Notes under the pieces: model-generated
What the model was told of the DNA's origin: nothing
Database searches by the model: none
The model's input: the letters and a program-made list of their open reading frames with translations, nothing else
Program-made: the position numbers and the translations under genes
Shown here: positions 3,119-44,109 of the stretch, piece by piece
Layout of the letters: every line of letters begins with the position of its first letter
Numbering within the stretch: position 1 is the stretch's first letter
Assembly: GCA_020057505.1 (NCBI GenBank)
Contig: JAGVFQ010000019.1
Span: 1 to 44,109, forward strand
Origin: Patescibacteria group bacterium
Lineage (GTDB): Bacteria; Patescibacteriota; Patescibacteriia; JAGVFQ01
DNA: 44,109 nucleotides
Direction: 5' to 3'

Positions 3119-4225
3119 TTATTTAATATTTATAAGTTGAGCAAATTCTTTCGGATAAATAAACATCAGAAAGTCCTTTATTTTAAAAGTATTACCGTGC
3201 TTTAATAATCCTAGATAAGACTGCAGCGTTTCCAGCGTTGGATTATTTTTTATTCGCGCCAGCATGCGATGGCGAGTGGTTTTCCGTAAAAGGCGATAAT
3301 CAGAGAAATTCAACCAACCGAGAAAATCAACGCCCGAGGCGATAATTTTTAAAAATATTTTATCCGGGTGCAGGTCAAGTTTTAATTCTTGATTCAAAAA
3401 ACGCCGGATGAAAGGAATAATATCCTCGAGTTCTTTTTTGTCGGGAGAAAGAAAAACAAAATCATCAGAATAGCGGATATAATATTTGATTCTTAACCAA
3501 TGCTTCACCCATTGATCGAATTTGTTCATATAGATGTTGGCAAAAAGCTGGGAAGTCAAGTTGCCGAGCGGGAGGCCAACGCACACCCCCTCTGTCTCCC
3601 CCTCCGAGAGGGGGAGAACTATAAATCCCCTCCTCTCAGAGGAGGGGTAGGGGTGGTGTGCAATTGGTTTATCCGACAAGGTATAAAAGCTCCCAATGAT
3701 ATTTTCCAAAAGCCGAATAATATCTTCATCCGGAATATATTCTTTTAGAATATTTAATAAAATCTCATGATCAATGCTTGCGAAAAATTTTCTGATGTCG
3801 CATTTTAAAACCCAGCAGGTTTTGGTATTATTCTTGCTGACTTCATAAGCGAATTGACGGAATCTATTGATCGCCCGATGCGTGCCTTTATCCAAACGGC
3901 AGGAAAAGGAATCAGAGATAAAGGTTTTTTCAAAGAAGGGATAGAGCAGACGGTAAACGGCATGATGAAGCAGGCGATCGCGGACACTGGCTTTGTGGAT
4001 ATGCCGGCGTTTGGGATCGTTGATAAAAAAACTTTCGTAATCGCCATGCCGATAGGTCTTATTGGCCAAACTCTCGTGAAGAGCTATAATATTATCCATA
4101 AGCTCACGGCTAAAAAGCTCCACGTCCGGCTTTGATTTTTTGCCGCGACTAAACTCCTGCCAAGCCAAAAGTAAATTTTCTAATGAAATAATATCTTCAA
4201 AAGTATGAGTGAATTGAATTTTCAT
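3119..4225 (-). CDS. DGR-type reverse transcriptase
   Basis: 368 aa; RT motifs, YSDDF catalytic box and GLPLGNLTSQLFANIY (SQ form typical of DGR RTs); TR/VR pair nearby; SD-like AAAAGGAA upstream of ATG. Confidence 0.93.
   Translation of the reverse strand: MKIQFTHTFEDIISLENLLLAWQEFSRGKKSKPDVELFSRELMDNIIALHESLANKTYRHGDYESFFINDPKRRHIHKASVRDRLLHHAVYRLLYPFFEKTFISDSFSCRLDKGTHRAINRFRQFAYEVSKNNTKTCWVLKCDIRKFFASIDHEILLNILKEYIPDEDIIRLLENIIGSFYTLSDKPIAHHPYPSSERRGFIVLPLSEGETEGVCVGLPLGNLTSQLFANIYMNKFDQWVKHWLRIKYYIRYSDDFVFLSPDKKELEDIIPFIRRFLNQELKLDLHPDKIFLKIIASGVDFLGWLNFSDYRLLRKTTRHRMLARIKNNPTLETLQSYLGLLKHGNTFKIKDFLMFIYPKEFAQLINIK
3581..3661. repeat. 81-bp double-hairpin palindromic repeat inside the RT ORF
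   Basis: Ends GCACACC...GGTGTGC; internal CCCCCTC-CGAG-AGGGGG and CCCCTCCTCTCAGAGGAGGGG hairpins; exactly 27 codons, no stop. Confidence 0.85.
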
Positions 4226-4619
4226 AAAAATATTCCTTTTAAGTCACCCCCCCCCCCAACGGGTCGGCAATGATTTATCACTTCTGACTAAATTCGGTGA
4301 AGCGTACAAGTTGTGGCATAGCTATTTTGAAAATCTGCCTCGACCCACTCGCAACACACTCGGCGCGAAGATTGACAATCTTTTCACCGATTGCTTGGAA
4401 CTCTGCTCTTTGGCCAGCTTCACGCCGCGAGAGGATAAACTAAAATTAATTCAAAAACTAAGCGCAAGATTAGATATTTTAAAATTCTTTTTAAAGCTTC
4501 TTTGGGAATTAAAGAAAATAGAAGACAAAAAATACATCTCTCTTTCCTCGCCTCTAGCCGAAGCCGGCAAAATGATCGGCGGATGGTTAAAATTTTTCCC
4601 AAAAAATTCTATTAAATAA
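4205..4619 (+). CDS. avd: Accessory variability determinant (Avd)-like four-helix protein; open part at least 4311-4619, probable N-terminus out of frame across C11
   Basis: LLTKFGEAYKLWHSYFENLPRPTRNTLGAKIDNLF...AGKMIGGWLK; adjacent to DGR RT and TR. The ATG at 4205 opens MSELNFHKNIPFKSPPP and is one base out of frame with the Avd body. Confidence 0.8.
4247..4257. repeat. Homopolymer tract C11 at the RT/avd junction
   Basis: Direct read: aagtcaCCCCCCCCCCCaacggg. Confidence 0.9.
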
Positions 4620-4623
4620 TTTT

Positions 4624-4657
4624 ATAGAAGCAGGCGAAAATTTCCGCCTGCTTCTAT
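4624..4657. terminator. Bidirectional terminator hairpin between avd (+) and TR RNA (-)
   Basis: ATAGAAGCAGGCG / CGCCTGCTTCTAT 13-bp perfect stem with T-rich flanks on both sides. Confidence 0.8.
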
Positions 4658-4672
4658 CTTTCTACACACCAT

Positions 4673-4787
4673 CAGGGGGAAGCAACCGAGATTGCTATTC
4701 CTGTCGTCGTCCTGATTCCAGTTGTCGCAGTTGAGACCGTTCGAGTCGAAATCGCCGAGGTTCAGCCGGTTGCCGTCGACGTGAAGA
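4673..4787 (-). other. DGR template repeat (TR)
   Basis: 115 bp aligned without gaps to 5102-5216; 17 differences, all at adenines of the minus-strand TR; AAC/AAT/GAC-rich. Confidence 0.97.
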
Positions 4788-5077: not shown

Positions 5078-5881
5078 CTAGATTCCAAGTTCCTCCACCC
5101 CCAGGGGGAAGCAACCGAGACGGCTAATCCTGCCGTCGCCCTGAATCCAGTAGCCGCAGAAGAGACCGCGCGAGTCGAAATCGCCGAGGCGCAGCCGGTA
5201 GCCGCCGACGAGAAGAGTGTCGGTCCGGGTCAACAACTCGTTGAGCGGAGTCCGTTCGCCCGCGCGCTTGAAATGGGCAAAAATCAGACCGGCAAGAAGC
5301 GCGGCGGAACCGAAATTCTTCAGATGATGAGCCGGCAGACCGACTTGCTCGCGGAAAGAAGCGAGAAGGGCGAGTTTCTCCTGGACGTTTTTGCCGAGGC
5401 TCTCCGGAATGAGGCGGGGAATCCAGAAGACGATCGAATTTTTAGTCGGTTCGTCATTCTGCAGGTTCCAGCCCTGAAGGTATTCGAAATTCTCATAGCA
5501 GCAGCCGGCCTTGGGCGCGTGCTGCTTCAGGGTGAAGCCCTGATTTACTCGCCAGGCAACGGGACCGGTGTAGCCGAGAAGAGCAGCGAGCTTGCGCCAT
5601 TTGGGCACGAGGTGTTGAAGCTGCTCCGGAACTTCGGAGTCGGCGAGCGGGGTGAAAAAGATCGTTGTCGTGAGCTCCCTCGTCTTGGCGATGACAACCT
5701 CGGCGATGGCTAATTTCAGTTTATCGCCCTGCGCGAAAAGTTGTTGGAGACCTTCCTTGTCGGGATTCACCTTTCCGAGTGCGAGCTCGGCCGCGCGGTC
5801 GGCCACGTCCTTGATGAGCCGTATGAATTGTTTTTCCTGTCCGGGTGTCCTTTGTTCGGATGTGATCAATGTTTTTTTCAT
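5078..5881 (-). CDS. DGR target (variable) protein
   Basis: VR at C-terminus (GGYRLRLGDFDSRGLFCGYWIQGDGRISRLGCFPLGVEELGI); AAAGGAGG SD upstream; start chosen at the third ATG (5881) for spacing, ORF track start is 5890. Confidence 0.92.
   Translation of the reverse strand: MKKTLITSEQRTPGQEKQFIRLIKDVADRAAELALGKVNPDKEGLQQLFAQGDKLKLAIAEVVIAKTRELTTTIFFTPLADSEVPEQLQHLVPKWRKLAALLGYTGPVAWRVNQGFTLKQHAPKAGCCYENFEYLQGWNLQNDEPTKNSIVFWIPRLIPESLGKNVQEKLALLASFREQVGLPAHHLKNFGSAALLAGLIFAHFKRAGERTPLNELLTRTDTLLVGGYRLRLGDFDSRGLFCGYWIQGDGRISRLGCFPLGVEELGI
5102..5216 (-). other. DGR variable repeat (VR)
   Basis: Aligned to TR 4673-4787; invariant 3' end CTCGGTTGCTTCCCCCTG is the IMH-like segment. Confidence 0.97.
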
Positions 5882-5946
5882 TGTCATCATCCTCCTTTCT
5901 TGGAAAGAATTGATTTTCTTGCCAATATGGCAAAAGGCCAGGAACT

Positions 5947-6111: not shown

Positions 6112-7173
6112 TCAAGCGTTTGTACAAGATGAGTACATAGGTAACACTTTTGAAAATTCCATAGGCGTTTTGTACCCTAAGGTTTCATGAGGTCGTCTAA
6201 AGTTGTATTCAATCAGCCATTCAGTCAGTCGTTGGTTGAAAATATTGGGATCAGGGTTGAAGTTGCCAAGTTCAATGAATTCCTTTTCTAAGGTTTGGTT
6301 GAATCGTTCGCAATTAGGATTATCCTTGGGTGTCCTTACTCGAGAATAGTATTGCTCGATTCCCAATCTAAGACAAGCTATCTTAAAATACTTTTCAAAT
6401 TCAGTGCCATTATCATGGCCTACCCGCGGCACTTGGCCGTCTAAAAGATAGTGGAGACGGTAAAGGAAATCCTCGCCGTTCTTTGAGCTTTTGGTTTGAT
6501 ACATTCTCGCGAAAGCCATCTTCCCGTATTTATCGATCGCCGTAAAGATATATCGCTTGAGGCCATTCCAATGGATGACAATGGTATCAAGACAAACGAT
6601 GTAGCCGGCTTGTTTTTGATGCCAAGCCAGTTTATTCAATTCTAACTCGGTGATGCGTTTTTTCTTTTGGCTCCTTTGCCTTTTCCTTTGTATTTTAGCT
6701 GTTTTTATGGGATTGAAGTAGAGCTTCCTTTTCTCGATCACTTTTTGGATTTTCCATGAGGAAATCTTCTCGCCGTATTCTCGTTCGTAGATCTTCGCCA
6801 GTTTGTTCTTGCCGTAGCGAATATATCTTTTTCTTAAAGCAACGATTCTTTGTTCTTGGGTTGGAGTGATTTCCCTTTGTCGCGTTCTTTTAGGCGCTCT
6901 GGGTCTATCTTCAAGCTTGCGGAGGCTGTAAAGATTATCCTCGTCAAATTCACGAAACCACTTGTAGAAGGTTTTTCTCGTAATGCCAAAGTGTCTTGCG
7001 GTATCTGTGGCGCTTGAGCCTTCATAGTAATGGATAATCCATTCAAGCCTTAATTGAGCTTGCTTCGTGATTTTGAGGATTTTAGCCACCCGGCGCCAAC
7101 GTTCGTGCTTATCGAGGAGCTTGATTTGGGGGACGAGATAATAGCCGATTTGTTTAATCTTATCGTTTAGCAT
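6112..7173 (-). CDS. IS481-like DDE transposase
   Basis: 353 aa; HTH domain, catalytic D (CLDTIV), D (GHDNGTEFEKYF), E (NPNCERFNQTLEKEF). Confidence 0.9.
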   Translation of the reverse strand: MLNDKIKQIGYYLVPQIKLLDKHERWRRVAKILKITKQAQLRLEWIIHYYEGSSATDTARHFGITRKTFYKWFREFDEDNLYSLRKLEDRPRAPKRTRQREITPTQEQRIVALRKRYIRYGKNKLAKIYEREYGEKISSWKIQKVIEKRKLYFNPIKTAKIQRKRQRSQKKKRITELELNKLAWHQKQAGYIVCLDTIVIHWNGLKRYIFTAIDKYGKMAFARMYQTKSSKNGEDFLYRLHYLLDGQVPRVGHDNGTEFEKYFKIACLRLGIEQYYSRVRTPKDNPNCERFNQTLEKEFIELGNFNPDPNIFNQRLTEWLIEYNFRRPHETLGYKTPMEFSKVLPMYSSCTNA

Positions 7174-43549: not shown

Positions 43550-43744
43550 TTAACTGTTTTTCGCAAGAATAAAATTAAGGTTGGCCAAATTTTCGTGAAG
43601 CGATATAATATTATCCATAAGCCACAGACTAAAAAACTCCACGTCTAGTTTTGATCTTTTGCCGCAGACAAATTCTTTCCACGCCAAAAGCAAATTTTCT
43701 AATGAAATAATTTCTTCAAATTTATGAGTGAATTGAATTTTCAT
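43550..43744 (-). pseudogene. Truncated DGR reverse transcriptase (N-terminal remnant)
   Basis: MKIQFTHKFEEIISLENLLLAWKEFVCGKRSKLDVEFFSLWLMDNIISLHENLAN aligns with RT 3119-4225 residues 1-55, then diverges to LNFILAKNS-stop. Confidence 0.88.
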
Positions 43745-44109
43745 AAAAATATTCCCTTTAAGTCGCCCCCCCCAACGGCCTGCCAACAGTGATTGAGAAA
43801 GAAAAGGAGGCATATCAATATTGGTTGAAATTATATCAAAACTTCCCTAAAATCGAGCGCTTCGGCATCGGGCAAAAAATATCGCAACTATTCATCAACG
43901 TTCTTGAATTAAGCTTCACCGCTGCCTATCTGCCACCCGATCAAAAAATAATTTTACTGGCAAAAACTATATCGCGGCTCGATGTCTTAAAATTTTTCGT
44001 CCAATTAGCCTGGGAGAACAAATTGATTCCGAATGAAAAATATATAGAGCTTTCCCAAAAACTGGAAGCAATCGGCCGTATGCTTGGCGGCTGGAAAAAA
44101 GGATTGCAA
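43724..44109 (+). CDS. avd: Second Avd-like gene, continues past window; open part at least 43789-44109 (GTG start), ATG leader out of frame across C8
   Basis: VIEKEKEAYQYWLKLYQNFPKIERFGIGQKISQLFINVLELSFTAAYLPPDQKIILLAKTISRLDVLKFFVQLAWENKLIPNEKYIELSQKLEAIGRMLGGWKKGLQ; not in ORF track. Confidence 0.8.
43766..43773. repeat. Homopolymer tract C8 at the second RT/avd junction
   Basis: Direct read: aagtcgCCCCCCCCaacggc. Confidence 0.9.

Follow-up and report, generated by a model that had tools for sequence, protein, structure and literature searches.

A simple repeat at the start of avd as a putative phase-variation switch of DGRs in Patescibacteria

Why would an accessory gene of a diversity-generating retroelement (DGR), a retroelement for targeted mutagenesis, carry a C tract at its start that leaves it one base out of frame with the ATG upstream? 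The question is raised by the window, by which we mean the whole stretch of 44,109 nucleotides that was analysed; it corresponds to one contig (G000:C14) of a 1.01 Mb Patescibacteria genome assembled in 66 contigs (G000). At about 3.1-5.9 kb of the window a DGR was found, consisting of a reverse transcriptase (RT), a template repeat (TR), a variable repeat (VR), avd and a target gene. The DGR-type RT (3119-4225, minus strand) matched RVT_1 (E 1.5e-22) and carries the LGNLTSQ and YSDD motifs. The TR (4667-4787, minus strand) pairs with the VR (5096-5216, minus strand), which is located at the 3' end of the target gene (5078-5890, minus strand), an ORF of 270 amino acids for which Pfam and NCBIfam gave no match. 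Over 121 positions, TR and VR have 19 mismatches, and 18 of these are at TR adenines. With this adenine pattern, an RT and an Avd all detected, the DGR is genuine; with regard to mutagenic retrohoming it is a DGR predicted from its sequence features. The avd gene lies on the plus strand between the TR and the RT, and is divergent from the RT.

Some other features were observed around the DGR. A GC-rich palindromic element (3588-3660) is found in frame within the RT gene, just before GLPLGNLTSQ, and the RT on another contig of the genome (G000:C3) has a longer insertion at the matching site; this appears to be a hotspot at which small palindromic repeats insert. A transposase-like gene (6112-7173; rve_3, HTH) adjoins the DGR target gene. 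Between the convergent avd and TR there is a hairpin with flanking T runs (4620-4665), possibly a bidirectional terminator.

The avd start in the window and its copies

The avd leader, MSELNFHKNIPFKS, opens with ATG 4205 and spans 14 codons (4205-4246, plus strand). It is followed by the C11 tract (4247-4257, plus strand) and the avd body (4257-4619, plus strand), which encodes a four-helix Avd protein; its frame is open from 4218 and ends with the stop codon at 4617-4619. The frame from ATG 4205 reads MSELNFHKNIPFKSPPPPTGRQ and ends at TGA 4271. The tract is one base off the length that joins leader to body: with one C fewer, both are in one frame. The first start-type codon in the avd frame is TTG 4311, within the first helix, and no ATG or GTG precedes it.

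The window Avd matched the NCBI Avd family NF033474 with an E value of 5e-18 and 65 bits, which is below the curated cut-off of 80. Its predicted model (pLDDT 87.8) matched the Avd of Bordetella phage BPP-1 (4dwl) at a TM of 0.84-0.85 in a fold search, which also returned the DGR ribonucleoprotein structures 8ub7, 8ub8 and 8ube, whereas a PDB sequence search with the Avd profile gave no match.

A second avd copy is located at the end of the window. Its leader (43724-43765, plus strand; ATG 43724) is followed by a C8 tract (43766-43773, plus strand) and a body (43774-44109, plus strand) that reaches the contig end, and a truncated RT remnant of 64 residues (43550-43744, minus strand) is divergent from it. 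This copy is out of frame in the direction opposite to the C11 copy, and a tract change of one unit joins its leader to avd. A third copy on G000:C3 has a C10 tract, is in frame and reads MSELNFHKNIPFKSPPPHGLPTVIEK, and a long RT frame adjoins it. Over 452 nt, the DNA of the second and third copies is 94% identical; their tracts are different, and the dN/dS of their bodies is 0.04. As the C11, C8 and C10 copies are in different frames, the three avd copies of this genome occupy all three phases. The in-frame third copy might supply Avd in trans to the out-of-frame copies. Contigs C14 and C3 (L002) each end within near-identical avd copies, probably due to an assembly break at the duplicated gene.

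The frame arrangement of the two window copies had been proposed in a first-pass annotation. Its coordinates for the out-of-frame leader and C11 tract, the stop at TGA 4271, the lack of an ATG or GTG at the avd N-terminus and the second copy that a one-base change restores were all re-derived, and the two differences between the window leaders are indeed synonymous in the leader frame. The in-frame versions of the leader that it predicted for related loci are present in the C10 copy and in many relatives. However, the leader overlaps antisense the first codons and the 5' flank of the RT (RT ATG 4225, minus strand), so that leader conservation between copies is not independent evidence, and the case must therefore rest on relatives. 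Leader conservation of the two window copies was dropped as stand-alone evidence because of this overlap.

Repeats at avd starts in related loci

Related loci came from whole genomes within the class and phylum of G000, from named GTDB contigs and from viral contigs; a close set of six Avd sequences served as query. Duplicates were removed, and each locus is a single assembly consensus. At the avd start, a simple repeat was present in 197 of 264 distinct Avd loci and absent from 59, the other 8 being incomplete; this prevalence is biased upward, since the alignments used as query came from repeat-bearing loci. C tracts of 6 to 14 bases, with a mode of 9-10, made up 175 of the 197 repeats. The remaining 22 had longer units (CT/TC, GA, CA, CAAT, CAAC, ACGA, CAGC, AGGAC and GCCAGCC), in 16 dinucleotide and 4 tetranucleotide arrays, one pentamer and one heptamer. 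Thus units of 1, 2, 4, 5 and 7 bases were seen, and none of 3 or 6 bases among the 197 repeat-bearing loci. The leaders were alike across loci (MSQLNF...STPPP). A plain in-frame ATG was found in 56 of the 59 repeat-less loci, and several repeat-less relatives (L006-L008, L055, L159 and L203) retain a similar leader fused in frame. The named hosts were almost all Patescibacteria, with one record titled Planctomycetota, and included Nomura-, Azam-, Buchanan-, Uhr-, Komeili-, Moran-, Kaiser-, Lipton-, Vogel-, Kerfeld-, Wolfe-, Harrison- and Yanofskybacteria, Kazan and others.

The frame logic was determined by altering each repeat by -1, 0 or +1 unit and scoring whether an upstream ATG opened into avd. 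The ATG was joined to avd in exactly one phase at 164 loci, in two phases at 30 and in none at 3. At least one joining phase was found in 153 of the 154 loci of an earlier locus set as compared to 49% for shuffled upstream sequence, a null that ignores the overlap with the RT; yet in 45 loci the ATG is outside the RT gene, often right beside the RT start. Of the single-phase loci 47 were ON (about 29%), 73 needed one unit fewer and 44 one unit more, so that both ON and OFF alleles (47 and 117) occur in nature. The three phases were not equally frequent (47/73/44, p = 0.01), which would not be expected at a simple slippage equilibrium and may stem from leaky expression in the -1 phase, from phylogenetic clumping or from selection. 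At these loci a non-triplet repeat is placed between start codon and body and the number of units sets the frame, as in simple-sequence-repeat (SSR) phase variation.

The position of the tracts was compared with the rest of the DNA. The whole genome G000 has seven separate C or G runs of at least 8 bases, one at the start of each of its three avd copies and four elsewhere. In 559 kb around SSR-bearing avd loci, with the window copies excluded, 129 such runs were at avd starts and 2 elsewhere. Chance placement of the tracts is excluded by these genome-wide and local counts. Phage-type Avd loci (n = 80) had no comparable repeat, with a 6-base G or C run in 4 of the 80, and 78 of them had an ordinary start.

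Two of the other runs in G000 are of note. A G10 tract (G000:C10:4441-4450; L077, about 1501) belongs to a leader frame that immediately precedes a ParB-family gene (ParB_N, HTH_ParB) and, in the assembly, is not in frame with it; the tract is a candidate for a further phase-variable locus. A G9 tract (G000:C41:18493-18501; L087, about 1501) is located between two adjacent ORFs that are alike by eye and are possibly one gene split by phase.

In a tree of 256 Avds the phase of the C-tract loci changed 67 times, and 67.3 +/- 3.1 times with shuffled labels, so phase is without phylogenetic signal. Repeat presence changed 28 times in comparison to 53.7 +/- 2.3 with shuffled labels, and these fewer changes indicate inheritance of the repeat itself. 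Within one group of similar Avd bodies, in which most pairs were 81-89% identical, members carried C9, C12, CAAT, ACGA, CAAC and CAGC. Tract length also differed between close pairs of avd loci; no pairs of avd bodies at least 95% identical with different tracts were found, the closest pairs being about 94-95% identical. The dN/dS was about 0.02-0.15 in close avd pairs, including pairs with both members OFF, which argues that OFF alleles are not dead genes.

Mismatch repair genes were searched as well. MutS_V and MutL had no match in G000, and each was absent from 35 of the 38 genomes searched. Among genomes of the class with a scorable avd, a repeat-bearing avd was found in none of the 7 with a full MutS1 and in 85 of the 112 without it (Fisher p about 1e-4), an association that is suggestive and phylogenetically confounded, as the MutS1 positives come from few families. 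The seven genomes with full MutS1 and repeat-less avd were G008, G080, G135, G152, G171, G187 and G241; in G080 and G152 the leader was kept fused in frame to avd.

Alternative explanations for the repeat

The recurrence of the repeat at the avd start, the frequent occurrence of all three phases and the absence of phylogenetic signal in phase support the phase-variable reading of the first-pass annotation. From these comparisons we strongly infer simple-repeat phase variation of avd, and estimate at roughly 0.88 the probability that the tract is a phase-variation switch of avd giving stochastic control of targeted hypermutation.

Transcriptional slippage or ribosomal frameshifting on the tract is an unlikely explanation, and the one that survives best. 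Here all phases would yield some Avd, and the role of the tract would be to keep expression low, not to turn it ON or OFF. Slippage in transcription is possible on long C tracts, and CCC-C is a known +1 frameshift site. Leaky expression in the -1 phase could explain the over-representation of this state, and the purifying selection on avd bodies in OFF loci is also in line with some expression. However, CAAC x11, AGGAC x7 and GCCAGCC x6 are found at the same site and are no slippage signals for polymerase or ribosome. The occurrence of all three phases also speaks against this explanation, and rules out a fixed programmed frameshift.

A repeat that tunes the spacing for the promoter or the translation start of the divergent RT on the opposite strand, without bearing on the avd frame, appears very improbable. 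In the window, the C11 tract precedes the RT start by about 20 bp, and a divergent RT was found at 153 of 155 repeat loci, as such a role would have it. Yet spacing would not predict the absence of 3- and 6-base units, the existence at almost every locus of a phase in which an upstream ATG opens into avd, or the in-frame fused leaders of repeat-less relatives. A side effect of the tract on RT expression may still accompany phase variation of avd.

Hardly credible is the remaining alternative, which the first-pass annotation had itself named, that the avd genes are ordinary and in frame, with a proline run of fixed length, and only appear shifted through homopolymer sequencing or assembly error: homopolymers of at least 11 bases are prone to error and contigs C3 and C14 both end within avd copies, but di- to heptanucleotide arrays and C6-C8 tracts have the same ON/OFF mix, units of 1, 2, 4, 5 and 7 bases occupy one site, just about 29% of single-phase loci are ON with all phases common, repeat presence follows the tree but phase does not, and error would not restrict long tracts to avd starts (129 versus 2).

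A proposed switch of targeted hypermutation

Slipped-strand mispairing at homopolymers is an established mechanism of phase variation, and SSR translational phase variation is known in Campylobacter, Neisseria, Helicobacter and Haemophilus. In the phase variation that we propose for avd, slipped-strand mispairing at replication would change the number of units that separate the avd start codon from the body. In one phase of three the short leader, ending in prolines if the unit is C, would continue into Avd (ON). In either of the other phases the leader frame would stop soon past the tract, and Avd would not be made (OFF). Without MutS and MutL the slippage would be left uncorrected. Switching of avd between ON and OFF would then toggle hypermutation of the DGR target stochastically and reversibly.

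Nonsense mutations in avd abolished retrohoming of BPP-1 reconstituted in E. coli, with a frequency of about 1e-9 that was the lowest among the component knock-outs (PMC12875486). As Avd is required for BPP-1 mutagenic retrohoming, switching of avd would switch the hypermutation of the DGR target, and OFF should mean no hypermutation from the cassette, unless another Avd acts in trans. We infer that slippage takes place in living populations and that OFF cells lose Avd and have a silenced DGR.

The avd loci resemble the SSR phase variation of the four genera above in having a non-triplet homopolymer or short repeat near the 5' end of the ORF, with both ON and OFF phases. The C tracts are likewise mostly 9-11 bases, and mismatch repair genes are absent from the host here too. 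They differ in that avd encodes an accessory factor of a targeted mutagenesis retroelement and is not a surface, modification or restriction gene, and in that the putative avd switch is spread across Patescibacteria, with the unit type turning over at one conserved site. The DGR in turn shares with BPP-1 the RT, Avd, TR, VR and adenine-specific changes, and its predicted Avd model matches 4dwl. In BPP-1, avd is 5' of the TR and the TR 5' of brt, in one operon (PMC12875486), whereas in the window avd is flanked by TR and RT, is encoded on the opposite strand in divergent orientation to the RT and has a repeat at its start.

The present loci probably belong to the Patescibacteria DGRs in DGR clade 2 of Roux et al., 2021 (PMC8144416), the main text of which makes no mention of Avd or frameshifts. 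The lower activity and turnover of cellular DGRs was attributed there to stronger RT control or to selection, a choice that was left open (PMC8144416), and DGR regulation in nature has been called a frontier (PMC12875486). No earlier report of a phase-variable DGR component was found in the open-access literature, judged mostly by title and abstract, and none of simple-repeat phase variation in CPR bacteria (Patescibacteria) in the open-access literature. Simple-repeat phase variation and DGRs are each well known; phase variation of a DGR component would be a known mechanism with a new kind of target.

It is plausible, with somewhat better than even odds, that a two-tier diversification is common in Patescibacteria. 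Slippage at avd would gate hypermutation, so that only a random fraction of cells diversify their DGR targets at any one time, and several cassettes per genome would switch independently; the switch would be kept where mismatch repair is lost and absent where MutS1 is present. If phase variation of avd is true, a slippery switch on a factor required for retrohoming would give a concrete answer to the question of DGR regulation for a bacterial group that is among the richest in DGRs. One hypermutable locus would control another, and simple-repeat phase variation would be extended to CPR bacteria.
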